Shown piece after piece: positions 45,472 to 62,893 of a stretch of DNA of 64,000 nucleotides. The translations under genes and the position numbers were made by a program. The notes beneath the pieces are model-generated. The model made no database searches and was not told the origin of the DNA. It was given only the letters and a program-made list of their open reading frames with translations. How positions within the stretch are numbered: the first letter of the stretch is position 1; each line of letters begins with the position of its first letter. The stretch comes from Acidobacteriaceae bacterium (GTDB lineage Bacteria; Acidobacteriota; Terriglobia; Terriglobales; Acidobacteriaceae), in the NCBI GenBank assembly GCA_027449545.1, contig DAIDLI010000047.1, forward strand, positions 1 to 64,000, written 5' to 3'.

Positions 45472-45675
45472 GTCTTTCTCCGACTGAGAGTGCTTGTGCG
45501 GCCGCGCATTCCGGGGGCAGCGCACCAAAAGCGTGCTCGCCGCCAGATCGGCGCAGCGCACGCAGGAAAGAGAAGTCCGGCTTGCGCGAGGGCGCAGGCC
45601 GATTCGATGGGGAAGGTCGTGCCCCCTTCAAGAGGGGCAGGTCATCGGGTTGTCTTGTCTGTAGGAGACCTATCT

Positions 45676-46152
45676 TTAGGGCTGCCCGGGATAAAAGGCG
45701 AGCCCTGCGCCTCCAAAGCTAGCCCACCCGTTCCAGCCGCCACCCGAGGTGGGTTGCCAGTCCGACCAGACCGCTCCGCTGCTATCCACGGAGAAGAGCT
45801 GGATGCGCTCATCCTGTGTGCTGCTGGCGACCAGATGTGGATCAAGGGCACTCCCACCCATATCGGTCCAGTTGCCGCCAATGCGCAGATTCTTGATACT
45901 CAGGTTCTGAAACAGCGTGGTGAGTTGGGTGTTATCAGGAGTCCAGAAGTTGCCATTGACTCCGCCTTGATCGACATTGGAGGTAACGGTAGCGGTTTCA
46001 AAACCGAGTCCGGAGAAGTCCTGCGGAATCGTATAGTTGCGTGAGGTGGTGTCCACCGTGACCGTGGCCGTTTGCCCGTAGATGCATCCCGTGCTCAGAA
46101 CTATCGACGCGCCCAGCGAAGCGTATTGCATGATTCCGCACGTACCTCGCAT
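45676..46152 (-). CDS. Miniature protein: GH79-like N-terminus joined to one PLL-like propeller blade
   Basis: TVTVDTTSRNYTIPQDFSGLGFETATV...LTTLFQNLSIKNLRIGGNW then DERIQLFSVDSSGAVWSDWQPTSGGGWNGWASFGG; RBS GAGGAG before ATG. Confidence 0.6.
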   Translation of the reverse strand: MRGTCGIMQYASLGASIVLSTGCIYGQTATVTVDTTSRNYTIPQDFSGLGFETATVTSNVDQGGVNGNFWTPDNTQLTTLFQNLSIKNLRIGGNWTDMGGSALDPHLVASSTQDERIQLFSVDSSGAVWSDWQPTSGGGWNGWASFGGAGLAFYPGQP

Positions 46153-46234
46153 ACATCTCCTCACGACTATGAATGGCTCTGGCGTGGCGCTCCCTGTCTC
46201 GGCAATACTGTTCCGAGACAGGGAGAACGAAGGA

Positions 46235-49200
46235 TTAGAAGAAGAACTTCATGGCGAGCTGGCCGATGCGATATCCATTGCGGTCGCTCGTGATCTTACT
46301 GAAGTTAGTTGAGTTGGTGAAGTTCAATTGAGGCCCTGGGTTGTTGAACTGTGGGTGATTGAGCGTATTGAATGTTTCCAAGCGGAATTGCAAGGATGTT
46401 TCACCACCGGTTGTGAAGTTCTTAAACAGCGACGCGTCCAAATTGTAGAAGCCTGGGCCGCGCACCTGTTCCGCTTTTCCGCCCAGGGGTGAGAAGTCTC
46501 GCTGGCCAATGACCGTGGCCGCGGGAGGTTCCGCAAAGGCGCTGGGATTCAGCCACTGATCGATGTTGTGCGGGCCGGCATAGGGATTTTGGCCGGCGAT
46601 CCGGTTGGCATTGCAGCCGTAATCTGCGGTGGTTGCGGTGGGACACCCAATGTTAAATGGCTGTCCGCTCTGGTAGGTATAGATGTAGTTGAAATCCCAT
46701 CCCCCGATCAGGGCGTTCACCAGGCTGCCTGCCCCGCTCAGGAACGCGCGCCTTCTCCCAAACGGCAATCCATATTCTCCTGCAACGTGCACAACGTTTC
46801 GGGTGTCGTTTTTGCATAGTGCGTAGTCCGGCCCGATGCCGAAGCCCGGTAACCACTCGGCACGAAAGCCGCCGAGAAGTTCGCCATTGCTGGTGTCCGT
46901 AGCCATACATTTGGAGAACGTATAGTTCGCTAGCAAAACGAGATTGTCTTTGAACTGATGCTGATAGACGGTCTGCAGAGAGTTGTAATTACTGACCGCC
47001 TGGGTAATGACATCCTGCATGTTCGCGGCAAAGGCTGGGAACGGCCGGTAGCTGGTCGGATTGGTTCCTGGAGGCAGAATCACCTGGGGTGAATTCTGCT
47101 GCCCATAGGCATCTCCATTTCGTCCTAAGGTTCCTACGTATCCAGTCTGAATGGAGTCACGGGTGGTGAATTGATACTGGAGAGTAAGATTCGCCGTTTC
47201 CACCAGCGGCGTTTTGTAGTTGTATTGCTTGCCGAAGAGAGATAGCCCGTTGCCGGTTACCAATGATGGGTCCTGCAGATTGATAGCTGCAAAGGTGGTT
47301 TCGAGTGTCGCTACCTGGCCATTGGGCAGCGTGTCGGGAGTTTGGGAAGTCAGACTGGGATTGCTGATAAGAAACTGAAATGGGTAGTTAGTGCCCATGG
47401 TGCTGCCGTATCCTACGCTGGCAAAGGCGCCGTAGGATATGCCATATCCGGCACGCAGAACCAGGTTGGGGCGCAGACGCCATGCCGCGCCCAGCCGCGG
47501 CCCAAAGTTACTGAGTTGCCCCTTATTGACTCTCAGGCCGGACAGACAATCCACCTGGATGTTGTATGTCGCCAGCAGCGCATTGAAGGCGGTTGAGCGT
47601 GGCACGGAACATCCCTTTTTCGTCATGTAATAAGTGCCTCCGGCTCCGTCACCTCCTGCTTGCTGGAAGTTCGCCTGGTTGCCGTTGCTTTCTCCGTAGG
47701 GTGAGGAATAATCCCAGCGCAGGCCGAGATTAAAGGTCAGGGATGGCGTAATACGCCAGTTGTCTTGCACGTAAGCTGCAAAATAGCCTGCGAAATATCT
47801 GGTCTGCGCCCAGTTGGATCCTTGGTAACTGCTCAAGCCGCCGAGATTGGAGATTCCACCTGACACCAGCGTCGCTCCGGGCGCAAGAAGCAGATCGGAA
47901 ATACCTAGCTCTTTGCTGTTTTTGTTGGGGATGTCGGAGTACATCCCGGTAAAACCGAATTCTCCTTTGCTGTATGCCGGCTGAACAATGTCTCCGCGAA
48001 TATGGTTCAGCTCAAACCCCATGCGGAACTCGTGCTTTCCGTGAATCTTGGTCACATTGTCGAAGAGTTCCAGGGCGGTGTCGGTTTGCAGGGTAGGCAT
48101 ATAGCGGCGCCCCCCGAAACTGGTGAAGCCGCTGTAGTCGATGGTCGGTAAGCCGCCGTTTCCGGCGATCTGCGGGATGCCTTGAATCCCATACTGCGCA
48201 GGGATGCCCGCGGTATTGGCGGTTGGCATCTCCAGGGTATTTCCTACGTGGTCATATCCGCCCGTCACATCGTTTTCGAAGGTTGGCGAAAATACGTGCG
48301 TGTAATTCAGCACCAGTTCGTAATGAGGCGCGAGGTTGACCGGGTTGATTTGCAACGCTCCGCCGGCGATGCCGGGGAACGGCTGATAGGAAGCGGTGTC
48401 CTGATAGCTATGGCTGAATGCGCCCCAAAGTATATCTTTCTGGCTTAAATCCTCATCGATCCTGAGGTCGTATTGGTCAGTGTAGGAAATTGCGGACGGA
48501 ACAGTGTAGTAGTTATTGAGCAGGGCCCCAGTATTCGTCGGCGCCGGCAGAAGTTCGAGCAGAGCAAGTGAATTGTTATCGATCCTTGATTGAGGAATCA
48601 CATTCAGGCTGGAAACGGGAACTTTGCTGAAATCGGTGATGCCGCTCAGCGGTCCCCCGGGCCGATAATTGGCGGCATCACAGCCGTTGGAGCCAGAACA
48701 GTTATAGAAAGGATCGCGAACATATACCGTGCTGCTGCCGGTGTTCGGTAAGCCGCTAATCGGGTCGACAGCTCCTGGCGCCACGGCGCGTGTAGTCGCC
48801 GGATCGAGGACCGTTCCGTGGGGGATGACGCGACCCAAGCCGTCGATACTCGAGCCCTGGTTGCCGGTCACTCCATCCGGGTTGCCGGCAATCAGATCCT
48901 GCAGGTTGGCGTAATTGTTTTGAAAGCTGTTACGCATGGCATTGGTGGGCACCGTAAACGCGGGGAATGCGGCCTGCTGGGTTAGATTTGTACGCTGGTA
49001 ATCGAAAAAGAAGAAAGTCTTATCCCGGCCGTTATAGATTTTGGGGAGGAAGATGGGACCGCCGACCGTCCCACCGAATTGGTTCTGCCGGTACATCTGC
49101 CGAGCCTTACCGTTCTGTTTGTTGAAATAGTCGTTGGCATTCAGGGCTTCGTTGCGGAAGTATTCCCAGAGGTCTCCCTTGATCTGGTTGGTGCCCGACT

Positions 49201-49924
49201 TGACCAGCGCATTGACCACTGCCCCGGCGAACTCGCCGAATTCCGCGCTGTTGTCGCCATCTTCCAGCTTGAACTCCTGAATGGCGTCCGGGACCGGAGC
49301 CACGCTGACCCCTCCAAAGACTTCCGAATTGTCGTCAATGCCGTTCAGGCGATAATCCACTTGAACTTGGCTCACGCCATTGACCCAGAGCTGCGTTGGG
49401 TTTTCCGATGAAGCGGAGACTGGCGTAATCGCACCGGCGGAAATTTGCGCCAGCGATAGCCAGTTGCGTCCGTTCAAAGGCAGGTCGTTTACCGACTCCT
49501 CGGCAACGGTCTGTCCCAGCGAGGCGTCTTGCGCTTGCAACAGGGGTGCGGCGGAGGTGACGGTGACCTCCTGGCTCACATTGCCCAATTGCAGAGAAAT
49601 GTCGGCCGTGACTACGGACTGCACGTGGACCTGAATTCCGGTTAACACATAGCTCTTGAAGCCGCTGGCATCCGCCTTCAGGGCGTAGGTGCCCACAGGC
49701 ACCCCTTCCAGCACATAGGTGCCGCTGGAGGTGGAGCGGGTGCTCTGCACCACCCGGGTAGCTTCATTGGTGAGCGTGATGGTGGCATTGCCGATCACCG
49801 CTCCGGAGGGATCCTTGACCGTGCCGGCCACTCCGCCTGCGGCGGTTTGCGCCGACGCCGAAGTGGCGAGCATGGTGAGGAGTACGACACCGGCAAAGAG
49901 CACTGCATTGCGAATTCTACTCAT
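46235..49924 (-). CDS. TonB-dependent receptor with carboxypeptidase-regulatory-like N-terminus
   Basis: Start moved to MSRIRNAVLFAGVVLLTML; GVAGTVKDPSGAVIGNATITLTNEATRVV; ends GQLAMKFFF. Confidence 0.92.
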   Translation of the reverse strand: MSRIRNAVLFAGVVLLTMLATSASAQTAAGGVAGTVKDPSGAVIGNATITLTNEATRVVQSTRSTSSGTYVLEGVPVGTYALKADASGFKSYVLTGIQVHVQSVVTADISLQLGNVSQEVTVTSAAPLLQAQDASLGQTVAEESVNDLPLNGRNWLSLAQISAGAITPVSASSENPTQLWVNGVSQVQVDYRLNGIDDNSEVFGGVSVAPVPDAIQEFKLEDGDNSAEFGEFAGAVVNALVKSGTNQIKGDLWEYFRNEALNANDYFNKQNGKARQMYRQNQFGGTVGGPIFLPKIYNGRDKTFFFFDYQRTNLTQQAAFPAFTVPTNAMRNSFQNNYANLQDLIAGNPDGVTGNQGSSIDGLGRVIPHGTVLDPATTRAVAPGAVDPISGLPNTGSSTVYVRDPFYNCSGSNGCDAANYRPGGPLSGITDFSKVPVSSLNVIPQSRIDNNSLALLELLPAPTNTGALLNNYYTVPSAISYTDQYDLRIDEDLSQKDILWGAFSHSYQDTASYQPFPGIAGGALQINPVNLAPHYELVLNYTHVFSPTFENDVTGGYDHVGNTLEMPTANTAGIPAQYGIQGIPQIAGNGGLPTIDYSGFTSFGGRRYMPTLQTDTALELFDNVTKIHGKHEFRMGFELNHIRGDIVQPAYSKGEFGFTGMYSDIPNKNSKELGISDLLLAPGATLVSGGISNLGGLSSYQGSNWAQTRYFAGYFAAYVQDNWRITPSLTFNLGLRWDYSSPYGESNGNQANFQQAGGDGAGGTYYMTKKGCSVPRSTAFNALLATYNIQVDCLSGLRVNKGQLSNFGPRLGAAWRLRPNLVLRAGYGISYGAFASVGYGSTMGTNYPFQFLISNPSLTSQTPDTLPNGQVATLETTFAAINLQDPSLVTGNGLSLFGKQYNYKTPLVETANLTLQYQFTTRDSIQTGYVGTLGRNGDAYGQQNSPQVILPPGTNPTSYRPFPAFAANMQDVITQAVSNYNSLQTVYQHQFKDNLVLLANYTFSKCMATDTSNGELLGGFRAEWLPGFGIGPDYALCKNDTRNVVHVAGEYGLPFGRRRAFLSGAGSLVNALIGGWDFNYIYTYQSGQPFNIGCPTATTADYGCNANRIAGQNPYAGPHNIDQWLNPSAFAEPPAATVIGQRDFSPLGGKAEQVRGPGFYNLDASLFKNFTTGGETSLQFRLETFNTLNHPQFNNPGPQLNFTNSTNFSKITSDRNGYRIGQLAMKFFF

Positions 49925-50609
49925 CTGGTTTTCTCCGTCCTGCTTCCGCAGGAACACACTAGGAAGCCCCGGTCTGGCAGGAGGGGCAGGGAAAAGCGCG
50001 CCGGGGTTTCCCCGGATTTGGCTCCAATCCGAGTCCCGATTGAAGCTCCATGAGCAAACTGTCGAGTGGACTTTACCGGCAGGGATAGAGCGAGTCAAGG
50101 AACCGGAAGTTAAAAGCTGCACCCGCGGGAGGGTGAGCCGGGAGGAGTTGTAACTGATTGGAAACAGATCAGATGATTCCTGCTTGGAGCGCGCCGGGAG
50201 GCTCCCTGGGGCTCTCTCAAAAGCTGAAAAATCGAACTCAATTCCTAAAAGCTGGCGCTTTCACGCCGCAGCCCGCCGCGAAGCGCGGTTGGATCCGGGA
50301 TGGCCTGGGGAAATCGCGAGGCGTTATGATGAGGACCGGAAAGCGAATCGCCATCCGATGTCCCCGCTGCTTGGTTCGATTCCGCTGCCGGACACCGGGC
50401 TTGGTCAGCCTTTCTCGTCCCCAAAGCCTGGGAACCGGGAATCGGATTGGTGCGCATTTGTGCTCCGGAGCGGGTGCGGCTTCTGCGGCCGAACCGGAGG
50501 ACAGCAGGAGAGGGAAGGATGCGGCCGATCGCCGGTCGGGCATCCTTTCTTTAGGCAACAGGGTACGGTTCTGGAAGGTCCGCGCCAGGGGGATGGGCGA
50601 GAGAAGCAG

Positions 50610-52811
50610 ATGCAGACACACGAGGAACTGGAGGCTGGAACTTATTACCAGTTCGACACTTACCTGCTCGATCGGGATGCGAGAACGCTGCGCTGCGCGG
50701 GCAGACTTGTCGAGCTGACCCCCAAGGTTTTCACGACCCTGCTGGTGCTTGTCGAAAACCGCGACAGGGTGCTGACGAAGGATGAGCTTCTCACCCTGAT
50801 CTGGCCGGATCAGTTTGTCGATCAGTCCAATTTGAGCCAAAACATTTCGGTGTTGCGCAGAAGCCTGGGAGAAGCCGAAACCGGCAAGAAATATATTGCG
50901 ACTTTCCCGGGACGCGGCTATCGCTTTGTGGGGAGCGTAGAGGTAAGACAGCGCGATGCGGACCGCGGCGCAATCTCCTCGGCAGGTCCCGCGGCGCCGG
51001 CTGGCGAGACGGTTCTCGCTGTCGCTGCCCAAGATCGATTTTCCCCTCCGTCTGTTCGTCCGAAAAGCGTTCGGATTCCCTGGAATCCTCGAAGCGTGGT
51101 CAGGGCCTGTGTGCTGGCGATGGCGGTGATCGCCGCATTCGCCATCGGCATGGAGATGCGGCGCGCCCGGCCGAGCCCGCCTGCGGGCAATGGGCCGGTC
51201 AAGGTGTATGCCCGGATGGATGCGGGACTGACGCAGCCCGCGTGGTCCCGGGATGGGAGCAAGCTGGCCTTTGTGGCTGTGGATTTGAGCGGCGGTCAAT
51301 CCTCTCTGTATGTTCAGTCGCGGGGGGATCTCCAACCGCACAAGCTGCTGTCCGACTCCGGCCAGTTCAGCAGCCCGGCCTGGTCTCCGGACGGCAGGCA
51401 GCTCGCCTTCCTGCATTTTGCGCCAGACGCTGCGGACCTGGTCCTCTACGATACGCAAAGCAGGACCTCCAGAATCCTGACGAAGCTCTTCGCGCACCGC
51501 TATGGCTTGAATTACCGTCATCTCGATTGGTCTCCGGATGGGAAGTTCGTGGTGGTCGACGACAAGAACCAGGATTCCGAGCCGTTCAGCCTCTACCTCA
51601 TTTATCTGGCGAGCGGCCAGAGGGTTCGGCTGACTTATCCGGATTCCGACATGATTGGAGATATTTCGCCGAGCGTGTCGCCGGACGGCGCCAGCGTCGC
51701 CTTTGTTCGAGACATCGACCACTTTGAACAGGATGTCTATGTAACGAGCGTCCGAGGAAGGACTTACCGGCGCATTACCGCGGCTCACACCCTGATCAGC
51801 GATGTTGGCTGGGAGACCGACAAGGCGCTGGCGTTCGCCGCGGATTACGGAAAGGGCTTCAGGTTTTGGCGCGTCGACCTGGCGAAGCAGCCTGCGCAAC
51901 CGGCCTTGGCCTCGCGGGTGGACTCTGAGCGCGCCTTGCAGTTCTCTGTTGCGCAGAGGGGAAGATGGGTGGCCTTTTCGAATTACGCTCCCAATCTTGA
52001 AATCTGGTCTCTCGATCTGCGCAAGCCTTCCAACCGCTGGGTCTCCGTGGTCCAGGCTCCGGGAGAAAGCATTCGGCCCGAGCTTTCGCCCAACGGCAAA
52101 CTTCTTGCCTTTTTGTCCAACGCATCCGGGCAGTTTCAGATCTGGGTAAGCGGGGTGGACGGCACAAGCGCCTGGCCGGTATCCACGGGCGTGCTCGTCC
52201 CCGCGTCGTTCTGCTGGTCCTTCGATGGCAAGGCGCTAATTTTTTCCCCGCAACATGTTCCCGGTCTCTACGAGGTTCCGCTGCACGGCGACTCCGCGGT
52301 CCGGGAAATCAGCTCGGTGTATACCGATCCCCGCGCCGCGAGGGACGGGAAGTCGCTGTTTGCGCGGGCGCATTTCTTTCTCTATCGCGTTCCGCTCCGG
52401 GGCGGCAATGCGCAGGAGATGACCGAGCAAGGCGGGGCGCCGATCGCGCAGTCGGCGGATGGCCGCTATTTGTATTTTCCGCAAGGGCGAATGAGCACCA
52501 CCATTGCCCGACTGGACCTGCAAACGGGCCATCAGGAGGAATTAATTCATGCGCTCCTGCCTGGATACTCTGACACCTGGGCTCTGAGCTCCGGAGGGAT
52601 TTTTTTCCTTGGACAGGAATACGATCAGCCGGGCATCCGGTTTTTCAACTTTGCCACCGGCGGCGAGGAACACGTTGCCGATCTCCCGGGAGAACTGCCC
52701 CCGGTTGAAATGTCTGGCTTTGGGATTTCTCCAGACGGGAAGAGCATTTGGGCGGTTCGCGCCGATCCGATGCCGTCAGACATCGAGATCACGAGCTTGC
52801 CGCCCAATTGA
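50610..52811 (+). CDS. OmpR/CadC-type winged-helix protein with single TM and TolB/PD40 beta-propeller sensor domain
   Basis: YLLDRDARTLRCAGRLVELTPKVFTTLLVLVENRDRVLTKDELLTLIWPDQFVDQSNLSQNISVLRRSLGE; TM VVRACVLAMAVIAAFAIGMEM; repeated PD40-like SPDGxxLAF. Confidence 0.92.
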   Translation: MQTHEELEAGTYYQFDTYLLDRDARTLRCAGRLVELTPKVFTTLLVLVENRDRVLTKDELLTLIWPDQFVDQSNLSQNISVLRRSLGEAETGKKYIATFPGRGYRFVGSVEVRQRDADRGAISSAGPAAPAGETVLAVAAQDRFSPPSVRPKSVRIPWNPRSVVRACVLAMAVIAAFAIGMEMRRARPSPPAGNGPVKVYARMDAGLTQPAWSRDGSKLAFVAVDLSGGQSSLYVQSRGDLQPHKLLSDSGQFSSPAWSPDGRQLAFLHFAPDAADLVLYDTQSRTSRILTKLFAHRYGLNYRHLDWSPDGKFVVVDDKNQDSEPFSLYLIYLASGQRVRLTYPDSDMIGDISPSVSPDGASVAFVRDIDHFEQDVYVTSVRGRTYRRITAAHTLISDVGWETDKALAFAADYGKGFRFWRVDLAKQPAQPALASRVDSERALQFSVAQRGRWVAFSNYAPNLEIWSLDLRKPSNRWVSVVQAPGESIRPELSPNGKLLAFLSNASGQFQIWVSGVDGTSAWPVSTGVLVPASFCWSFDGKALIFSPQHVPGLYEVPLHGDSAVREISSVYTDPRAARDGKSLFARAHFFLYRVPLRGGNAQEMTEQGGAPIAQSADGRYLYFPQGRMSTTIARLDLQTGHQEELIHALLPGYSDTWALSSGGIFFLGQEYDQPGIRFFNFATGGEEHVADLPGELPPVEMSGFGISPDGKSIWAVRADPMPSDIEITSLPPN

Positions 52812-53013: not shown

Positions 53014-54471
53014 TCAGTGCGAAACGGCTCCCGACTTCAGGCTGATGTCGCTCGGCGAAGGCTGCGGCCGCCAAAGGTAAGTGGCCACCGAGCCGGCAGG
53101 AAGAGACGCAGCAAAACTCCGGCCCTTCCACTCAACCGAAAACTCTGCTGCGGTGCTGGCTTGATTCAGCACCAGCAAAACGATCGAGCGATCGGGATTC
53201 TGGAATGCGACGCTCTCCAGATTGCCGGTTCCTTGCCTGGTCGAGCCAATGCGGACAGCGCCCGGATGCACAAACCGGCTGGCTTGGCCGATGGCGTAGT
53301 AGTCCACCGTGTAGATGAGTTTGTGGGGCGTGTCGCGCCTGTCCACCGTGATAAACGCCCGGCAGTTGTGGCAGCCGCCCGCGTAGGGACCATTCTTTTC
53401 ATCCAGCACCAGTCCCCACAGCACCACCGCCTTTGCCCAGTTGCGGGTTGAGTCGATGACCAGGTGCTCGGTGTCTGCCAGCAGATTGCCCTTCTGCCAG
53501 TCCCCGCCCGAGCACTCTGTCATCCAGATGCCCTTGTGCGGAAAGCGCTCGTGGACCGCGTCCTGTGCGGACGCATCACCGCCGTAGCAATGGAAAGCCG
53601 ATCCGACTGTGTAGCGCTTCGCCGCCGGATCCGAGAGTACCTCCAGCGCGTACTCGGGATGATCCCAGTTGTGATCGTAGGCGAGAAGGATCTGCGGATG
53701 GCCGGCCGCGGCCAGTGCCGGCCCGACGAAATTGCCGATGAGCTTTGTCGCCTGGGCCGCAGGCAGAAGCATGCCAGGATAATCCTTGGTCTCATAGAGC
53801 GGCTCATTCTGCAGTGACAGGTACTTCACAGGAACCCCGGCTTCTTCGTATGCCTGCACGGAGCGAACGAGGTAAGCAGCAAAATCCTTCGCCGCATCCG
53901 CGCGCAGAGAGCCGCCGATCATTGAATCGTTGGTCTTCATCCACCCTGGAGGACTCCATGGCGAAAGCATCACGCGAATGGCGGGATTCAGAGCGAGGGC
54001 CTGGCGCATGGCCGGCAGGACGTACTCGCGATCGTGGGCGATCGAAAAGTGCGCAAGCCCGGCATCGCGCTGACCCGGCGGCATGTCGTCGTAGCTGTAG
54101 TGATTGCGCGCAAGATCGGATGCGCCAAGCGGCACGCGCACAAAGCTGATCCCGATTCCCTCTTTTCCATCAAAGAGACGCCGCATCGCTTTGTCGCGCT
54201 GAGCCGGTGTCAACTGCTTCTCCAGCAGCCACGCCGAAGAGTCGGTCATGGCGGCTCCAAAGCCATCCATGGTCTGGTAGCGCGCACCGTCGTCCACCAC
54301 GATCGCGTTCTTGCTGCCAGGACCGGCCCCAAAAGCGAGCGTCGGCTTTGCCGTCAGTGCGTCGTGGAGATCGGGAGTGGTTTGAATCACCGAAACCGTC
54401 TGGCCGCAAGCTGCCGCGGCTGAAGCGGCGCAGAGCATCAAGAGGACCTGCTTATGGAACCAATTCGACAT
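53014..54471 (-). CDS. Glycoside hydrolase family 30 (glucosylceramidase-like)
   Basis: ARYQTMDGFGAAMTDSSAWLL; IRVMLSPWSPPGWMKTNDSMIGGSL; LSLQNEPLYE; SVAFQNPDRSIVLLVLN. Confidence 0.93.
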   Translation of the reverse strand: MSNWFHKQVLLMLCAASAAAACGQTVSVIQTTPDLHDALTAKPTLAFGAGPGSKNAIVVDDGARYQTMDGFGAAMTDSSAWLLEKQLTPAQRDKAMRRLFDGKEGIGISFVRVPLGASDLARNHYSYDDMPPGQRDAGLAHFSIAHDREYVLPAMRQALALNPAIRVMLSPWSPPGWMKTNDSMIGGSLRADAAKDFAAYLVRSVQAYEEAGVPVKYLSLQNEPLYETKDYPGMLLPAAQATKLIGNFVGPALAAAGHPQILLAYDHNWDHPEYALEVLSDPAAKRYTVGSAFHCYGGDASAQDAVHERFPHKGIWMTECSGGDWQKGNLLADTEHLVIDSTRNWAKAVVLWGLVLDEKNGPYAGGCHNCRAFITVDRRDTPHKLIYTVDYYAIGQASRFVHPGAVRIGSTRQGTGNLESVAFQNPDRSIVLLVLNQASTAAEFSVEWKGRSFAASLPAGSVATYLWRPQPSPSDISLKSGAVSH

Positions 54472-54680: not shown

Positions 54681-57600
54681 TTAGAAGTCGATCCGGGCGC
54701 CAAGCTGGATGACGCGCGGACCGCCCGGCCCTGCCTGGCTCCACATGCTGGTGGGCTGGTTCCAGCTGGAGTCGAGCGAAACCGACTCCGGCGTGTACGT
54801 GCCGCCGCTGTAGCTCGGTAGCGTCAGGTTCGCGCCCAGATCGTGGCTGGCGAAGTTCGGATGGTTGAAAACGTTGTAGGTCTCGCAGCGGATCTGCAGA
54901 ACGGCGCGTTCCGCTTGCCCCAGCGGGAAGTTCTTGAACAGCGACATATCCCAGGTCTGCATGCCGCCATCGCGCAACTTCTCGGGAGTGCCCTTATACG
55001 GCTGGCCGATCTTGGGCAGAATGGGCTTGCCCGTGGAGTCGATGCCCAGGTACGCGGGGGGAATCTTGCTCCACTGCCGGCCGCCCGTCAGTTGGCTCCC
55101 CTGCACCCAGAATGGCGTCCAGGTCGGCGTGCCCGTCATGAAGTTGGAGACGCCGGAGAGCTGATAACCGTCCGTGATCATTCCCAGCACGCGGGAGCCG
55201 CCCAGGAAACGCGCCACGGCAGGCAGATCGTAGACGTAGTTGATGGCGGCCACATGCGTGCGGTCCCAGCCGGCCACCTGGTAGTTGTACTTGCGCGGGT
55301 TGAAGGGATCCACGTAGCTCTCGTCCGCAGTCGACGTGGTCATGGACTTCGACCACGTGTAGACCGCGCCGGCAGTCAGCCTGTGCCCGAATCGCCGTTG
55401 CAGCGAGGCCTGAAGCCCGTTGTAGTTCGACGTGCCGTCGAACTTGTAATACTCCAGTTGATCGTAGCCCCAGAACGGTGCCAGGTAGTTATCCGGATAC
55501 GCATACTGGCCGCTGAAGCTGTAGCCGGCGGCTGCGTATTCCGGCGGAAGGTTCGGCTCTACGTCCGGCACTACCCCGCCCTGAAAGTTCGCCGGATTCT
55601 GCGCGGCCTTCGTGAACGTGGTCCCGTAGGGGATCGTGTTGATATCCCGCGCCGTCACCAGGTGGCGCGACATGGTCCCTACATAGGCCACATCCAGCGC
55701 AAAGCCGGAGCCGAGATCCCGCTGGATGCCGAGGCTGAAGCTGTACACCGTCGGCACCTGGCCGGCCCTGTCTGCGCCGATGATGCCCGAGAGCACTCCC
55801 GGCGCGTTTTGCGGCGCGCTCTGAATGGCCGAAAGCGGCAGATAAGTCGGCGCGGTGATGGACGGAGTTGTTACGTTCATCGGGTTGGTGAAGGTGGGAT
55901 TGAAGACCAGGTTTCCCTGCTCGCGATCGTGCGACATGCCGAAGCCGCCGCGCAGCACGCCCTTGTGATCGCCGATCGGATCCCAGGCAAAGCCCACGCG
56001 CGGTTCCACCATGATGCCGCGAGAGTTCCAGCCGCCCTGCGGCAGCGTCCCGTTGGAAGCGAATCGCATGCCCGTCAGCGGGTTGCCGCTGTTGGGAATC
56101 GGATTGCCATTGGTGTCGATCTGCACGCCCGCCGAGCGAACGTAGGCGCTTGGATCGAACAGCGCAATCTGGTTCTTGGCATCGAATTGCGGAGGAATCC
56201 AGACGAATCGCATGCCGTAGTCCAGCGTCAGCCGCGGCATCACCTGCCAGGTGTCCTGCGCATAGAACTCAAGCTGGTTGTAGCGGAAGTAGCCCCGCGG
56301 CCGCGCGCTCGACTGATCGAAGCTCGAGAAATAGCCGAGCAGAGCGCTGGCAAACGGAGAGCCGGTGGCCGGATCGCAGGCACGCACGTTGTTCGAGGTC
56401 GCGCAGTTGTTGAAGTTGAACTGGCCGTTGTAGTTGCCCCAGGCCGGCTGGTCCTTGCGGCTGCGTTGGTAAAAGATGCCGAACTTGAAGCTGTGACTCC
56501 TCTTGATCCAGGTCAGGTTGTCGTTCACGTTGATGGTGGTGTTGGCCTGGAACCAGGGATTGGCTCCGTAATACGACCAGGGGTAGTTCTGGCCGTTGCC
56601 GCTGTAGCTGATGTCCGGAATCGATGTGTCGGAGGTTACCGCATACAGCAAGGGAAGATTCACGTTGTTCTTGCCGACGCTCAGGTTGCCGTTGTTGCTG
56701 GTCCAGGTGGTGCGATAAACGCTCGGTCCTACCGTCAGCTCGTTCAGCAGGTTCGCCCGGATCGTGCTGGTCAAGTCAGCCGCCAGATTCCATCCCGGCT
56801 GAGTTTCCACGCAGCCGCCGACGATTTGCAGCGTTCCCATGCACTGCAGGATGCCGGTCTGCATCGGCGTGATCGTGGATTCGCGGTTACCCGTCCAGCG
56901 AACGAAAAAGCGCTCATTGGGGTTGATCTGGTAATCGACGCGCGCAATGAACTCCTTGCGCGGATCGTTGAAAGAGACGTTGTCAATGCGGTTGTAGAGG
57001 AACTGCGTGGTGCCGTAGCTGCTCACGTTCGGCTGCGCGTACAGGTTCATGATCGACTGCATGGACGTGTCGATCGATCCCGACGGAATGGTATTGCCGG
57101 AGTACGGCGTCGTCGTGCCGGGCTGATAGATCGTGATCGGCTGGCCGCTGCTGTCATAGCTCTGCGAGAAGTTGCCCTGCCGCTCGGCCGTCGTCGGCAC
57201 ATAGTAGGAATTCGTGCCGGCCGGAACCAGTTGCTGGTAAAACTCGTTCGACCAGAAGAAGAACAGCTTGTCCCGCTTGATCGGGCCGCCGACATCGTAC
57301 CCTTCGGTGTTGTAGCGGTAAAGCAGCTTGGGGATGTCGTTGTGGTTGTTATACCAGCCGGTTGCGTTCATGCCGTCGTTGCGATGGAAGAAGTGAACGC
57401 TGCCATGGAGGTCGTTGGTGCCGCCCTTCGACGTCACGGCGATCTGCCCGCCCGAAGCCTTGCCGAACTCCGCAGCGTAGTTCGACGTGAGCACTTTGAC
57501 CTCGGCAATCGAATCCACGTTCATGGTCACTTGCGTGCCGCCGTTGTCGCCGGTATCCACGTTGGAGGAGCCGTCAAGCGTGAACTCGTGCGAGTTCTGC

Positions 57601-58232
57601 CGCGTGCCGTTGATGCTGTAACTGCTCAGCCCTCCCGTTCCCGAGGCGGCAAACGCGCCTACACCGGATACGCCCGGAATCAGCCGCAGGTAGTCCAGCA
57701 CGTTGCGCCCGTTCATGGCCACATCTTTGAGCTGCTTGCTGGTGATCACATCGGAGCGGTCTCCGGAATCGGACTGGATCTGCATCTGGCCGGTGTTGGC
57801 CGCCACCTCAACCGTGGCGGTGGCCGAACCTACCTGAAGCGCCAGATCGCCGGCATTGAGGCTGGAGCCGGCCATCAGAATCAGTCCCGATTTCCGAAAG
57901 GTCTGAAACCCCTGCGCCGTTACCTCCAGGGTGTAGTTGCCAGGCGGCAGGTTGGGCAGCGCGAAGGTGCCGGCTTCGGAACTCGTTGTGGTGCGTACCA
58001 CGCCGATGTTCATATCCGTTGCCGTGATGGTCGCGTGGGGAACAAACGCCCCCGTTGCATCCTGGACGGAACCCAAAATCGAGCCCGAGGTGATCTGCGC
58101 CTGCGCGCCCGGCACCAGGCACAGCAGCGCGATCAGTCCAAAAAGAACCCACGCGGCTGGACTGGACCACCGCTTGGGGATTTGAGATTGTTGTAGGGCC
58201 TCTCTTAAGTCATTACGTTTGTGGAAGTGCAT
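54681..58232 (-). CDS. TonB-dependent receptor with carboxypeptidase-regulatory-like N-terminus
   Basis: RBS AAGGAGG; ITSGSILGSVQDATGAFVPHATITATDMNIGVVR; ends VIQLGARIDF. Confidence 0.93.
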   Translation of the reverse strand: MHFHKRNDLREALQQSQIPKRWSSPAAWVLFGLIALLCLVPGAQAQITSGSILGSVQDATGAFVPHATITATDMNIGVVRTTTSSEAGTFALPNLPPGNYTLEVTAQGFQTFRKSGLILMAGSSLNAGDLALQVGSATATVEVAANTGQMQIQSDSGDRSDVITSKQLKDVAMNGRNVLDYLRLIPGVSGVGAFAASGTGGLSSYSINGTRQNSHEFTLDGSSNVDTGDNGGTQVTMNVDSIAEVKVLTSNYAAEFGKASGGQIAVTSKGGTNDLHGSVHFFHRNDGMNATGWYNNHNDIPKLLYRYNTEGYDVGGPIKRDKLFFFWSNEFYQQLVPAGTNSYYVPTTAERQGNFSQSYDSSGQPITIYQPGTTTPYSGNTIPSGSIDTSMQSIMNLYAQPNVSSYGTTQFLYNRIDNVSFNDPRKEFIARVDYQINPNERFFVRWTGNRESTITPMQTGILQCMGTLQIVGGCVETQPGWNLAADLTSTIRANLLNELTVGPSVYRTTWTSNNGNLSVGKNNVNLPLLYAVTSDTSIPDISYSGNGQNYPWSYYGANPWFQANTTINVNDNLTWIKRSHSFKFGIFYQRSRKDQPAWGNYNGQFNFNNCATSNNVRACDPATGSPFASALLGYFSSFDQSSARPRGYFRYNQLEFYAQDTWQVMPRLTLDYGMRFVWIPPQFDAKNQIALFDPSAYVRSAGVQIDTNGNPIPNSGNPLTGMRFASNGTLPQGGWNSRGIMVEPRVGFAWDPIGDHKGVLRGGFGMSHDREQGNLVFNPTFTNPMNVTTPSITAPTYLPLSAIQSAPQNAPGVLSGIIGADRAGQVPTVYSFSLGIQRDLGSGFALDVAYVGTMSRHLVTARDINTIPYGTTFTKAAQNPANFQGGVVPDVEPNLPPEYAAAGYSFSGQYAYPDNYLAPFWGYDQLEYYKFDGTSNYNGLQASLQRRFGHRLTAGAVYTWSKSMTTSTADESYVDPFNPRKYNYQVAGWDRTHVAAINYVYDLPAVARFLGGSRVLGMITDGYQLSGVSNFMTGTPTWTPFWVQGSQLTGGRQWSKIPPAYLGIDSTGKPILPKIGQPYKGTPEKLRDGGMQTWDMSLFKNFPLGQAERAVLQIRCETYNVFNHPNFASHDLGANLTLPSYSGGTYTPESVSLDSSWNQPTSMWSQAGPGGPRVIQLGARIDF

Positions 58233-58509
58233 CTTGCCTCCTTATGCCTCATCGGCGAATCTCTCTCTCAGCCAATTTGTGACTTGGCTATCCTTGCTGC
58301 TGCCGCAGGCGGTGCTCTGCTTTCGGCGCAGCAAATGCGTTCATGGTGAAGCGTTGCCCAAAGTAGGACACCGCTGCTGTGACGGTCCTTACGCTGGATG
58401 AAAGGTTTTGTGATGATTTTATGATGCCGACTAACCTTCGCAAAATGAGCAGGTTACATGGGGATCGGCGTCAGTGCTAAAATGAGCTACGTTCCGCGGT
58501 GATTTTGTT

Positions 58510-60672
58510 TTGAGAACGAATTACTCGATCGGCGAGTGGTTGGTTGAACCTGCGTTGAACATCGCTTCGAGGGGTGACGTAGTCGTTCACCTCGAGCCGA
58601 AGGTCATGCAAGTCCTGGTCCACTTCGCCCAGCATCCCGGAGAGGTGCTCACCAAGGAACAGGTCATTGAGGCCGTCTGGCCGGACACCTTTGTCAGCGA
58701 GCAGGCCCTGACGCGCTGCATCTCGGTTCTGCGCCGCGAGATGCAGGACGACGCCCACACCCCCCGATACATCCAAACAATCTCTAAATCGGGTTACCGC
58801 CTGGTCGCAGAGGTGCGCGTGCACCAAGTCGAAGCTCCGCATCCGCCTGCGGAGCCGCATCTTGCCTCCGAGCCGCCTGCCAACGGAACCATGCCGAAGC
58901 TCGACCCCGCCCCGGTCGCGCCAGCCCCAGTCTCCCGGAGGAGGTATTGGATCTGGGGAGTCGCTTCCGCGTCGGTCGCCGTGGCCGCGGTGGCTGTATT
59001 CCTCCTGTTGCGCATGGGGCAGAGTGCGGACCTGCCACCGTTCCGCGTGATTGCGCTGACCTCCTACGCTGGCCAGCAGGACCAGGGTGCCTTTTCTCCG
59101 GCCGGCAACAGCGTCGCGTTTGTCTGGACTAGCCCCGACGACGGCTACCGCAATATCTTCGTCAAGCACATCGGCGACGAGACCACCCTCCGCCTGACCA
59201 ACGGCCCGGAAGCCGACTACTCGCCCACCTGGTCACCCGACGGAACCCGCGTCGCCTTTCTGGCAGCCTCCGACAAAGGCCTCGGCATCTTCCAGGTCTC
59301 CAGCTTTGGCGGCCCCGTCACCCGGCTCTACACGCCGAAGGGCATCATTCACTGGGAGCAGGGCGGCCTCTCCTGGTCGCCGGACGGCAAATCCATCGCC
59401 TTCCCCGACGGCGTCTCGTCGCGCTCCCCCTCGGCCATCTATTTGCAGTCGCTCGACACTCTCCAGGCGCGCCCTCTTACTGCGCCCCCTGCGGAGTGGG
59501 ACGGCGACTTCGATCCCGCCTTCTCCAACGACGGCAAGCGCATTGCCTTCATCCGCGCCAGCGACTACGCGGTGCGCGACATCTATGTGGTCCCCGCAGG
59601 CGGTGGAGAGGCCAGGCAGATCACGCACGACGGCCGCATCGTCGACAGCCTGTGCTGGAGCCCCGACGACAAGTCCATCATCTTCTCCTCCGATCGTGGC
59701 GGAAAATTCGCCCTCTGGAGAGTCTCCGTGCGAGGGGGTGAGCCGGAGCGGCTGTCTGTCGGCACGGAAGATGCCTTCCAGCCCGCCTTCTCCCCGGTCA
59801 CCCATCGGCTTCTTTACACCCAGAGCTCGGCGACCTGGAGCATCATGGCCATTCCCCTGCGGCCTGCCGCCAAAGCCGGCAAACTCGCTCCGGTCATCTC
59901 CTCCACCGCCCAGGACTCTGCCCCGTCCTTTGCTCCCGGCGGCAGCCGCATCGCCTTTCAAAGCTGGCGCTCGGGCACTCAGGAAATTTGGATCACCTCG
60001 CGCGACGGAAAGAACATCCATCAGCTCACCTCCGACGGGGAGGGGCTCACCGGAAGCCCATCCTTCTCTCCCGACGGCATGTGGGTGGCCTTCGACAGCC
60101 GTGTTGAGGGGCATTCCCATATCTTTCTCGTCCCCGCCGTGGGCGGCGCCCCCCGCCGCATTACCGCGGGCGATTCCAACAACATCCTGCCGCGCTGGTC
60201 GGCTGACGGCAAATCTCTTTACTTTGCCTCCAATCGCAACGGCACCTGGCAAAGCTGGAGGGTACCGGTTGCCGGAGGCAATCCGCAGCAGGTTACGGCA
60301 AACGGCGGCTACGTCGCGATGGAATCGCCCGATGGCAGGTGGGTCTACTTCACCAAGGGCGACCTCTCGGGAATCTGGCGCATACCCATCAGCGGCGGCG
60401 CCGAGCAGCTCGTCCTTTCCCAGCCGCGTGGCGGCTACTGGGGCTACTGGTGTATCGGCCGCAGCGGCGTCTACCTGCTCGATACCGATCCACCCGCGCC
60501 GCGCATCGTGCTTTACGATTTCTCCACGCACAGAACTTCGACGATTGCCACACTCGATCACTCGCCCCCTCCCTACGCGGGCCTGACCGTCGACCGGAAT
60601 GAGAACGAACTGCTAATGACTGATGAGCGCAACGTCGGCAGTCATCTCACCCTGGTCGAAAACATGCGTTAG
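58510..60672 (+). CDS. OmpR/CadC-type winged-helix protein with single TM and TolB/PD40 beta-propeller sensor domain
   Basis: LVEPALNIASRGDVVVHLEPKVMQVLVHFAQHPGEVLTKEQVIEAVWPDTFVSEQALTRCISVLRREM; TM; SPDGTRVAFLA-type repeats. Confidence 0.92.
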   Translation: MRTNYSIGEWLVEPALNIASRGDVVVHLEPKVMQVLVHFAQHPGEVLTKEQVIEAVWPDTFVSEQALTRCISVLRREMQDDAHTPRYIQTISKSGYRLVAEVRVHQVEAPHPPAEPHLASEPPANGTMPKLDPAPVAPAPVSRRRYWIWGVASASVAVAAVAVFLLLRMGQSADLPPFRVIALTSYAGQQDQGAFSPAGNSVAFVWTSPDDGYRNIFVKHIGDETTLRLTNGPEADYSPTWSPDGTRVAFLAASDKGLGIFQVSSFGGPVTRLYTPKGIIHWEQGGLSWSPDGKSIAFPDGVSSRSPSAIYLQSLDTLQARPLTAPPAEWDGDFDPAFSNDGKRIAFIRASDYAVRDIYVVPAGGGEARQITHDGRIVDSLCWSPDDKSIIFSSDRGGKFALWRVSVRGGEPERLSVGTEDAFQPAFSPVTHRLLYTQSSATWSIMAIPLRPAAKAGKLAPVISSTAQDSAPSFAPGGSRIAFQSWRSGTQEIWITSRDGKNIHQLTSDGEGLTGSPSFSPDGMWVAFDSRVEGHSHIFLVPAVGGAPRRITAGDSNNILPRWSADGKSLYFASNRNGTWQSWRVPVAGGNPQQVTANGGYVAMESPDGRWVYFTKGDLSGIWRIPISGGAEQLVLSQPRGGYWGYWCIGRSGVYLLDTDPPAPRIVLYDFSTHRTSTIATLDHSPPPYAGLTVDRNENELLMTDERNVGSHLTLVENMR

Positions 60673-60913: not shown

Positions 60914-62893
60914 TTGGCATTCCAAACGTTTCTCACACAGGCCTCCGAAGGTCGCGGTTATTCCCTTCGGTTCTTTCTCTCGTACAGCATCTTCTTTCTT
61001 CTTACCGCGTCGCTCGCATTGGCTGCCGAGGCTCCGCGCCGCTTTGCCATCGCGCCGCAGCCTAACGACGTGATTCCCACCGGCAACGAGTGGATCGCTC
61101 TCCCCGAGATTCGCGCCAGCGACGGCGCGCTGGCCAGCTTCAACGCCCTTTCCATGCGCTATCGCGGCCTGCTCCAGGTCCGCGGAGATCAAGGCGCGCC
61201 GGCGCTTCAGCCCTACTTTGAAGCGGACGGCAAGCCGGTCAGTTTTCAGAATCCCTCTTGGGATCTCATCGAATACTGGATTCCTTCCGCGCATCGGACC
61301 GCCGACGGCCTGGAGATGACCCTGACGTGGTGCGCGCCGCCGGGTATGCGCGGTGCATTTCTCCGCATGACAGTCACCAACAGGCGCGCGAAACCCGTTT
61401 CCGTCGCTCTGGGCGTCAAGGCGTCCTGGGGAGAACTCCAGCGCGTCACCTACACTCCGGTGCCGCTGCGCGGCCAGCGTGCGGTGGCCGCCGCGCCCTG
61501 GCTCCATTCCGGCGAGGTCTTCAGCTACATCACCAATGACACGCAGTTTGCATGGTCGCTGATCCATCCCGGATCGACGGCCCAGACCATCGTGCCCCCC
61601 GCCGCGCCGTCTCCCCTGGTCGATGCCCGGCACGTCGCCACGCTCGCGCCGGGAGCTACCGCCGAAGCCGTCTTTGTGCTGGGCGTAGGGTTAGAAGAGT
61701 TCAGCGCGCCGCACAATGCGCACGAACTGGAGATGTTGATCGATCGCGATGGCGCCGACGCTATGCTGGATCGTGCCGCCGCCTGGTGCAGAAGCCGCAC
61801 CCGGACCACCGGCCGCCCCGATCTCGACATGCTCATGAATCGCAACCTCCTGTTCACCGCGCTCTACGCCTGGGGCCGCACCATCGACACCGAGCAGTTT
61901 GTCGGCGTTACCTCGCGCAGTCCGCGCTACTACGTCTCTGCGGCCTACTGGGATCGCGACGCCATGTTGTGGAGCTTTCCCGCGCTTCTCGATATCGACG
62001 CCAAGCTGGCTCGCGATGCGCTCCAATACGCCTACACCACCCAACTCCGCGACACCGGCACGCACAGCCGCTTCATCGACGGCGTGGTGCTTGAAGACGG
62101 ATTTGAGTTGGATGAAGCCGCGGCCCCGCTCATCGCTTTAACGGAGTACGTCCAGCGCACCGGCGACGTCGCCTTCCTGCGCGCCCACCGCGATGCGGTC
62201 GAGATGCTGCTCCGCCGCATCGAATCCCGCCACGACGCTGCCACCGGACTTTATTCCACGCTCCAGGATGCCCAGGACGAATACCAGAAGTTGCCGTTTT
62301 CAACCTATGACAATGTGGTCGTGTGGAAGGCCCTTCTCGACGCCGGCTCCCTGTTCGATAAGCTCCAGGATGCCGCGCAGGCCAGGCAGATGACCGATCG
62401 CGCCGCGGCGCTGCGCAAGGCGATCCTTGCTCATTGCGTTGCAGCGAATGCTCCCGGCGCAGCGGGAACGATCTTCGTCAACGCGACCGATGGAACCAGC
62501 CCTTCTTTTGCCGACGTGCCGCCCGGCTCGCTCATGAAGCTGCCCATGCTCGGCTTCGTTCCCGAGACCGATCCGGTCTTTGAGCGCACCTACCGCTGGT
62601 TGCACTCCGCCGCTTACAGGTATTCGTACGCAGACCAGCCCTACGGCCTGCCGGGAAGCTACCGCCTGCCCTTCACAACCTCATGGAGCGTGGCCGATCA
62701 TCTTTCCTTGAAGCAGGGCCACGCCCAGGCCATGAAGATCCTCCTCACAAGCAAGTGGGACGGAGGAATCATCACCGAAGGCGTAGACTCGGCAACCGCC
62801 GCGGCTGAGCCAGGCGGAAGCGCCTTCGCTACGGCCGCGGGATATGTCGCCGATGCTATCTGCCGCATGGCCTGCGTCCCGCCTGCGCCTTAG
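60914..62893 (+). CDS. Six-hairpin glycosidase-like protein (amylo-alpha-1,6-glucosidase/GDE-like)
   Basis: Signal peptide; SPRYYVSAAYWDRDAMLWSFPALLDIDAKLARDALQYAYTTQLRDTGTHSRFIDG; YDNVVVWKALLDAGSLF. Confidence 0.72.
   Translation: MAFQTFLTQASEGRGYSLRFFLSYSIFFLLTASLALAAEAPRRFAIAPQPNDVIPTGNEWIALPEIRASDGALASFNALSMRYRGLLQVRGDQGAPALQPYFEADGKPVSFQNPSWDLIEYWIPSAHRTADGLEMTLTWCAPPGMRGAFLRMTVTNRRAKPVSVALGVKASWGELQRVTYTPVPLRGQRAVAAAPWLHSGEVFSYITNDTQFAWSLIHPGSTAQTIVPPAAPSPLVDARHVATLAPGATAEAVFVLGVGLEEFSAPHNAHELEMLIDRDGADAMLDRAAAWCRSRTRTTGRPDLDMLMNRNLLFTALYAWGRTIDTEQFVGVTSRSPRYYVSAAYWDRDAMLWSFPALLDIDAKLARDALQYAYTTQLRDTGTHSRFIDGVVLEDGFELDEAAAPLIALTEYVQRTGDVAFLRAHRDAVEMLLRRIESRHDAATGLYSTLQDAQDEYQKLPFSTYDNVVVWKALLDAGSLFDKLQDAAQARQMTDRAAALRKAILAHCVAANAPGAAGTIFVNATDGTSPSFADVPPGSLMKLPMLGFVPETDPVFERTYRWLHSAAYRYSYADQPYGLPGSYRLPFTTSWSVADHLSLKQGHAQAMKILLTSKWDGGIITEGVDSATAAAEPGGSAFATAAGYVADAICRMACVPPAP

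Follow-up and report, generated by a model that had tools for sequence, protein, structure and literature searches.

A propeller-bearing membrane regulator encoded divergently from a TonB-dependent receptor-like gene in an Acidobacteriaceae genome, and the glycosidases beside such pairs

Genes and architecture of the module 2 locus

The stretch of DNA analysed (the window) is the 64-kb contig C47 (DAIDLI010000047.1, positions 1 to 64,000 of the forward strand, assembly GCA_027449545.1) of an Acidobacteriaceae bacterium whose genome comprises 4.43 Mb on 221 contigs. It carries two gene modules in which a TonB-dependent receptor (TBDR)-like outer-membrane protein is encoded divergently from a transmembrane transcription regulator, and the second of these, module 2, is the subject here. 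Its receptor gene (54681-58232, minus strand; 1183 aa), assigned from Pfam and the receptor tree, specifies a signal sequence together with the Pfam domains CarboxypepD_reg (E 9e-20), Plug (2e-9) and an OMP_b-brl_4 barrel (2e-164); an STN signalling domain was not detected by the Pfam scan in this receptor or in that of module 1. Directly 3′ of the receptor gene and on the same strand is a glycoside hydrolase gene of family GH30 (53014-54471; Pfam), and the two probably form one operon. As the position of GH30 behind the receptor is conserved in relatives, the unit is wider than receptor and regulator. The regulator gene (58510-60672, plus strand; 720 aa with a TTG start; Pfam and AlphaFold2) is separated from the receptor gene by 277 bp (58233-58509), within which TAAAAT at 58478-58483 (plus strand), read from the sequence, is suggested as a candidate −10 element of the regulator promoter. 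A gene for a GH125-like, six-hairpin glycosidase (60914-62893, plus strand; Pfam) is 3′ of the regulator gene, an order kept solely in the near-identical metagenome-assembled genome (MAG) JA4.bin20 (L113).

The regulator has an N-terminal winged helix-turn-helix (wHTH) DNA-binding domain (Trans_reg_C, 3e-18; residues 26-98, encoded by 58585-58803) and matches PD40 at 2e-46 with five repeats passing. In an AlphaFold2 model built from 40 sequences (mean predicted local distance difference score 87.7, predicted template modelling score (pTM) 0.71), the wHTH is joined by a disordered linker (residues 108-144) to a transmembrane helix (145-170; 58942-59019), predicted from both model and sequence, and then comes a PD40/TolB-like propeller (178-720; 59041-60669), the proposed sensor region, assigned from Pfam, comparison with solved structures and the model. 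RRR precedes the helix, which suggests an orientation with the N-terminus in and the C-terminus out and would place the propeller in the periplasm. The nearest solved relatives are CadC (5ju7) for the wHTH and, by both sequence and fold, TolB for the propeller, the latter at a score below the TolB equivalog cut-off. The count of about 12 four-stranded blades comes from the strand pattern of the model, since the fold search returned query-normalised TM-scores of 0.2-0.3 with large rmsd.

Linkage, enzyme partners and promoter repeats

The initial annotation had taken the recurrence of the arrangement as a sign of a functional unit and not of coincidence, and this is borne out. The genome has 15 Trans_reg_C and about 55 OMP_b-brl_4 genes. 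Five of the former are long (706-885 aa) and encode PD40 as well, and a TBDR adjoins every one of these (5/5): the two pairs on C47 and those on contigs C160 and C122 are divergent, and that on C80 is tail-to-tail. For a random gene the rate of TBDR neighbours expected is about 3% (our own estimate, from about 55 TBDRs and about 4000 genes). Among 40 relatives, longer PD40 proteins without a wHTH, taken as a control, adjoin a receptor in none of 10 cases. (At L093-L102, larger proteins of 870-1003 aa, possibly protein kinases to judge from their length, carry PD40 propellers of like sequence type and have neither a wHTH nor an adjacent TBDR.) In a tree of 44 wHTH-PD40 proteins the pairing is clustered in few clades, with 5 changes versus 11.4 in shuffles. 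The divergent pair is kept, 32-421 bp apart, in 14 relatives of module 2; this subclade is represented in Terriglobus (T. roseus), Edaphobacter (E. lichenicola), Terracidiphilus (T. gabretensis), Candidatus Angelobacter and MAGs. In Granulicella sp. L60 (L131, 6742-10153) about 160-200 N-terminal residues are left of the receptor, fused to the end of GH30, and the reading frame of the regulator is split into two. Taken alone, the split might reflect a sequencing error; the joint decay of all three genes fits a single functional unit.

Each regulator subclade retains its own enzyme. GH30 is directly behind the receptor in 11 of the 12 module 2 relatives with enough flank (L117-L124, L126, L127 and L154), the twelfth, L053, having none; L114 and L115, in which the sequence ends at the receptor, were left out of the count. 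The C122 subclade has GH66 behind the regulator in 5/5 (L050, L056, L125, L148 and L152, two of them near-identical), and the C160 subclade has a GH13 cyclomaltodextrinase in 7/7 (L049, L054, L055, L057, L059, L060 and L061). The modules are glycan-acquisition loci resembling polysaccharide utilization loci (PULs). The module 2 GH30 is closest to BT3312 (PDB 5ngk, E 6e-71), the endo-1,6-beta-glucanase of the Bacteroides thetaiotaomicron 1,6-beta-glucan locus, for which the key residues have been named (PMC5481569). In the alignment to BT3312 the catalytic acid/base and nucleophile glutamates are conserved, and Asp131, Trp345 and the CxxC pair (Cys393/Cys396) are identical. (Acidobacterial-type regulators are also present, together with GH13 and GH31 genes, on L128 and L130, two contigs of a MAG that bears the label Formivibrio sp., which suggests mis-binning.)

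The intergenic DNA carries a repeated signal. When the 15 divergent gaps of the module 2 subclade (the window and 14 others) are aligned, one block is far more conserved than the remainder (0.80 versus 0.60), and it is made up of two or three TGA(G/T)G units at intervals of 11 bp. The window has TGATG-N6-TGATG with units at 58411 and 58422 (58411-58426, period 11) and a weaker copy, TGAAA, at 58399; from the alignment and its statistics these direct repeats (58399-58426, to which no strand is assigned) are the putative operator of the module 2 regulator. The exact form TGAKG-N6-TGAKG occurs in 11 of the 15 gaps, and with at most one mismatch in 14, all with a spacing of 6, versus a shuffled expectation of 0.00; none of the other spacings from N3 to N11 occurs in more than one gap. 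The strict form, TGAKGNTTTTNTGAKG, has a single occurrence in the 4.4-Mb genome, and that is in the module 2 gap. In a scan of 60 genomes of the family it gave 7 matches, of which 3 are at receptor/regulator gaps and the remainder apparently chance; as one of the three (G356) is L119 by coordinates and another (G136) is probably already represented too, no out-of-sample claim is made for the motif as a regulon marker.

The period is shared more widely than the half-sites. Gaps of the GH66 subclade have TGAGC-N6-TAAGG-N6-TGAGC and those of the GH13 subclade CCAAT/TCAAT units, in both with a period of 11 bp; clear cases in other clades are L151 (CTGAAGATTTT CTGAAGATTTT CTGAAGTTATG), L048, L075 and L136. 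Across 91 regions upstream of wHTH-PD40 genes, period 11 is the sole one enriched among periods 7-18 (p<=0.02 in 16.5% and p<=0.1 in 36% of regions; the other periods reach p<=0.02 in 0-5.5%). wHTH genes without PD40 are alike in this enrichment (17.9%), and 91 background divergent gaps have none (2.2%). A wHTH of the PhoB/OmpR class would be expected to bind direct repeats with just such an 11-bp period.

Receptors are one class of partner among several. In other members of the regulator family the divergent gene codes for an exported protein of cytochrome-GSDH, aspartyl protease, beta-lactamase-fold, fasciclin or NHL-repeat type. The cytochrome c-GSDH (sugar dehydrogenase) partner is found in Luteimonas, Pseudoxanthomonas and Cellvibrionaceae, and in Xanthomonadaceae, Cellvibrionaceae and one member of the Alteromonadaceae the wHTH-PD40 regulators divergent to it have a conserved 11-bp repeat block of their own, TGGAGGGAAGC TATGGTTTTGC TATAGATT in the gammaproteobacterial cases (the loci are L134, 6243-10202, and L137, L139, L141, L143, L144, L146, L147, L149, L150, L155 and L176). 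A divergent upstream neighbour less than 700 bp away with a signal-peptide-like start, as called by a crude rule, is present for 25 of 37 other acidobacterial and 16 of 22 non-acidobacterial members, versus 91 of 778 in the background. The constant element is a divergent promoter beside an exported-protein gene, not the receptor, and all cases can be covered by one rule, that of a local regulator of a divergent exported-protein gene, receptors being one class of target.

Module 1 has the same architecture by Pfam, and the initial annotation had the coordinates and this correspondence right. Its receptor gene (46235-50122, minus strand; more likely start 49924) and regulator gene (50184-52811, plus strand; more likely start ATG at 50610) were both assigned by Pfam. 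The modules had been called clearly divergent, and indeed their regulators are 29% and their receptors 30% identical, too little for one module to have been copied recently from the other; in the receptor tree the closest sequence to the module 1 receptor is another receptor of the same genome, L012, at 49%, and local duplication of one module from the other was rejected on these grounds. Beside module 1 is a gene (42553-45561, minus strand) whose product combines a GH79/GH44-like catalytic region with propeller lectin repeats of the PLL type. The 162-aa open reading frame at 45676-46164 of the window resembles a shortened paralogue of that protein, the start of the enzyme domain being joined to the lectin end. 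A different kind of pairing is seen at L162 (5598-10871), L163, L165 and L167, where wHTH proteins of 436-465 aa with neither PD40 nor another known sensor domain adjoin TBDRs that form a supported clade of their own; such proteins make up a further type of receptor-linked regulator.

Interpretation and rival explanations

The reading that we regard as rather probable is that each module serves glycan acquisition and is governed by a one-component regulator of CadC/ToxR-like build with an oligosaccharide-sensing propeller. The regulator would sit in the inner membrane with its wHTH in the cytoplasm, a single transmembrane helix and its propeller in the periplasm, and, to judge from its domain content, would bind, within the promoter region common to both genes, the direct repeats of 11-bp period. 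From there it would control, presumably by activation rather than repression, the divergent receptor-glycosidase operon and probably also its own gene. The receptor would carry glycan fragments across the outer membrane, the exported GH30 would cut them, and the propeller would sense the resulting periplasmic oligosaccharide, closing a glycan-specific positive feedback loop. That the propeller is the sensor, and that its ligand is an oligosaccharide, is suggested by the architecture of the model, its nearest solved relatives, the constancy of the enzyme in each subclade and likeness to the propellers of hybrid two-component systems (HTCS).

Several points weigh against this. The counts of conserved pairs are largely among orthologues and so are not independent. 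The gap of module 1 has no convincing 11-bp repeat or operator. At C80 (L048, 6570-13000) the regulator is divergent to a gene for a large NHL-repeat exported protein, four 11-bp TTCAG/CTGAA repeats are in the gap on that side, and the TBDR is tail-to-tail on the opposite side; as the repeat faces the NHL-repeat protein, the receptor there may be a bystander. With regard to substrate, Asn244, which belongs to a pair of residues peculiar to BT3312, is absent from the module 2 GH30 in the alignment, and the match to the NCBIfam BT3312 model (E 4e-95) is below the cut-off of that model. For these two reasons the substrate is assigned at the level of beta-glucan at most: comparison of the enzymes makes a beta-glucan probable and, more specifically, a fungal 1,6-beta-glucan possible.

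Could the receptor itself be what the regulator reads? The initial annotation had proposed that each regulator may be specific for its own receptor, and in its mechanistic form the propeller would bind the CarboxypepD_reg or plug domain and read transport activity. Linkage is tight, PDB entries show propellers of the TolB type bound to other proteins, Pal among them, and within the module 2 subclade the distances among regulators track those among receptors (Mantel r 0.83), a correlation that linked inheritance alone would also yield. Beyond that subclade congruence fails. The module 2 and C122 regulators are sisters, 44% identical, but the receptors that go with them, at 30% identity, do not group together in the receptor tree, so that the sister subclade has an unrelated receptor clade as well as a different enzyme. 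Receptors of the GH13 group are incompatible with the regulator topology (p-AU, from the approximately unbiased test, 1e-4) and the GH13 enzyme data reject both the regulator and the receptor topologies, each result being of moderate weight as it comes from six taxa. Add to this that the same regulator family stands beside non-receptor genes and that the receptors lack STN, and signalling by receptor contact is improbable; specificity of regulator for receptor has partial support at most and is partly contradicted by the sister subclade, the GH13 group and the non-receptor partners. A sigma-free route from receptor to gene, with the propeller docking on the N-terminal domain of the TBDR to report transport to the promoter and with swaps tolerated via the shared CarboxypepD_reg, would be something of a long shot. 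Signalling of sigma/anti-sigma type was rejected for want of an STN domain.

Incongruent trees had been expected to indicate chance adjacency. That rule is too simple, as the trees are partly incongruent and adjacency is far from chance. Two families common in Acidobacteria could come to be neighbours fortuitously, there being some 55 TBDRs in the genome and, in relatives, many wHTH-PD40 genes without a TBDR neighbour, but this is scarcely credible in view of the five pairs out of five in this genome, divergent pairs in 14 other genomes, the shared operator-like repeat and the joint decay. For modules like module 2 it is ruled out by the first two of these, the tail-to-tail receptor of C80 excepted. 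A more serious contender is a generic envelope regulator, in which the propeller would respond not to glycans but to the condition of the envelope or to the divergent exported protein itself, its amount or its folding. The many kinds of exported-protein partner across phyla, and their frequency relative to background, speak for it. Strict constancy of the enzyme in each subclade nevertheless fits a glycan ligand better, as do the sugar-related cytochrome-GSDH partners even in Xanthomonadaceae and Cellvibrionaceae, and the generic explanation is considered unlikely.

Related systems and what the pairing means

With regulators of the ToxR/CadC type the module 2 regulator shares an N-terminal Trans_reg_C (OmpR-type) wHTH without a receiver, one transmembrane helix and a C-terminal periplasmic sensor; it differs in that the sensor is a PD40/TolB-like propeller and in its linkage to receptor-glycosidase operons. 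An account of membrane one-component regulators describes them as widespread, with enrichment in Acidobacteriae, and its text does not mention propeller, TolB, WD40 or TonB (PMC10269533). TolB itself has no DNA-binding domain, whereas here about 12 blades are fused to a wHTH and transmembrane helix. Comparable too are the HTCS of Bacteroidetes PULs, membrane regulators with a large periplasmic double propeller, proposed as the glycan sensor (PMC3243724), whose genes accompany those of an outer-membrane glycan receptor and of glycosidases. Instead of Reg_prop repeats the module 2 regulator has PD40 repeats, and its DNA-binding domain is a wHTH; Pfam finds in it no histidine kinase, receiver or AraC-type domain, and there are no Reg_prop/YYY motifs.

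The SusC/SusD PULs, of which the 1,6-beta-glucan locus is one (PMC5481569), likewise combine a TBDR, a GH30 enzyme (here endo-1,6-beta-glucanase-like) and a local regulator, but the receptor here belongs to the Oar-like OMP_b-brl_4 type and carries CarboxypepD_reg, and no SusD family member was found among the neighbours scanned. In FecA/FpvA cell-surface signalling, which runs from an STN-bearing TBDR through an anti-sigma factor to an extracytoplasmic function (ECF) sigma factor, the TBDR gene is also beside that of its own regulator; here the regulator is a putative direct DNA binder and the receptor has no STN, and by Pfam the adjacent genes are wHTH-PD40, GH30 and GH125-like, with no FecR-type anti-sigma or ECF sigma gene among them. 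No description of the pairing of receptor and propeller regulator was found in the open-access literature.

Acidobacteria are among the commonest bacteria of soil and have dozens of TonB-dependent receptors per genome, the regulation of which is, to our knowledge, largely unknown. For several of these receptors the present analysis offers a testable regulator, an operator and a predicted class of substrate. The 11-bp period of the operator helps to predict the targets of such regulators from sequence, and more widely the findings suggest that membrane one-component regulators include a branch with propellers, present in several phyla, beside the genes of exported proteins.

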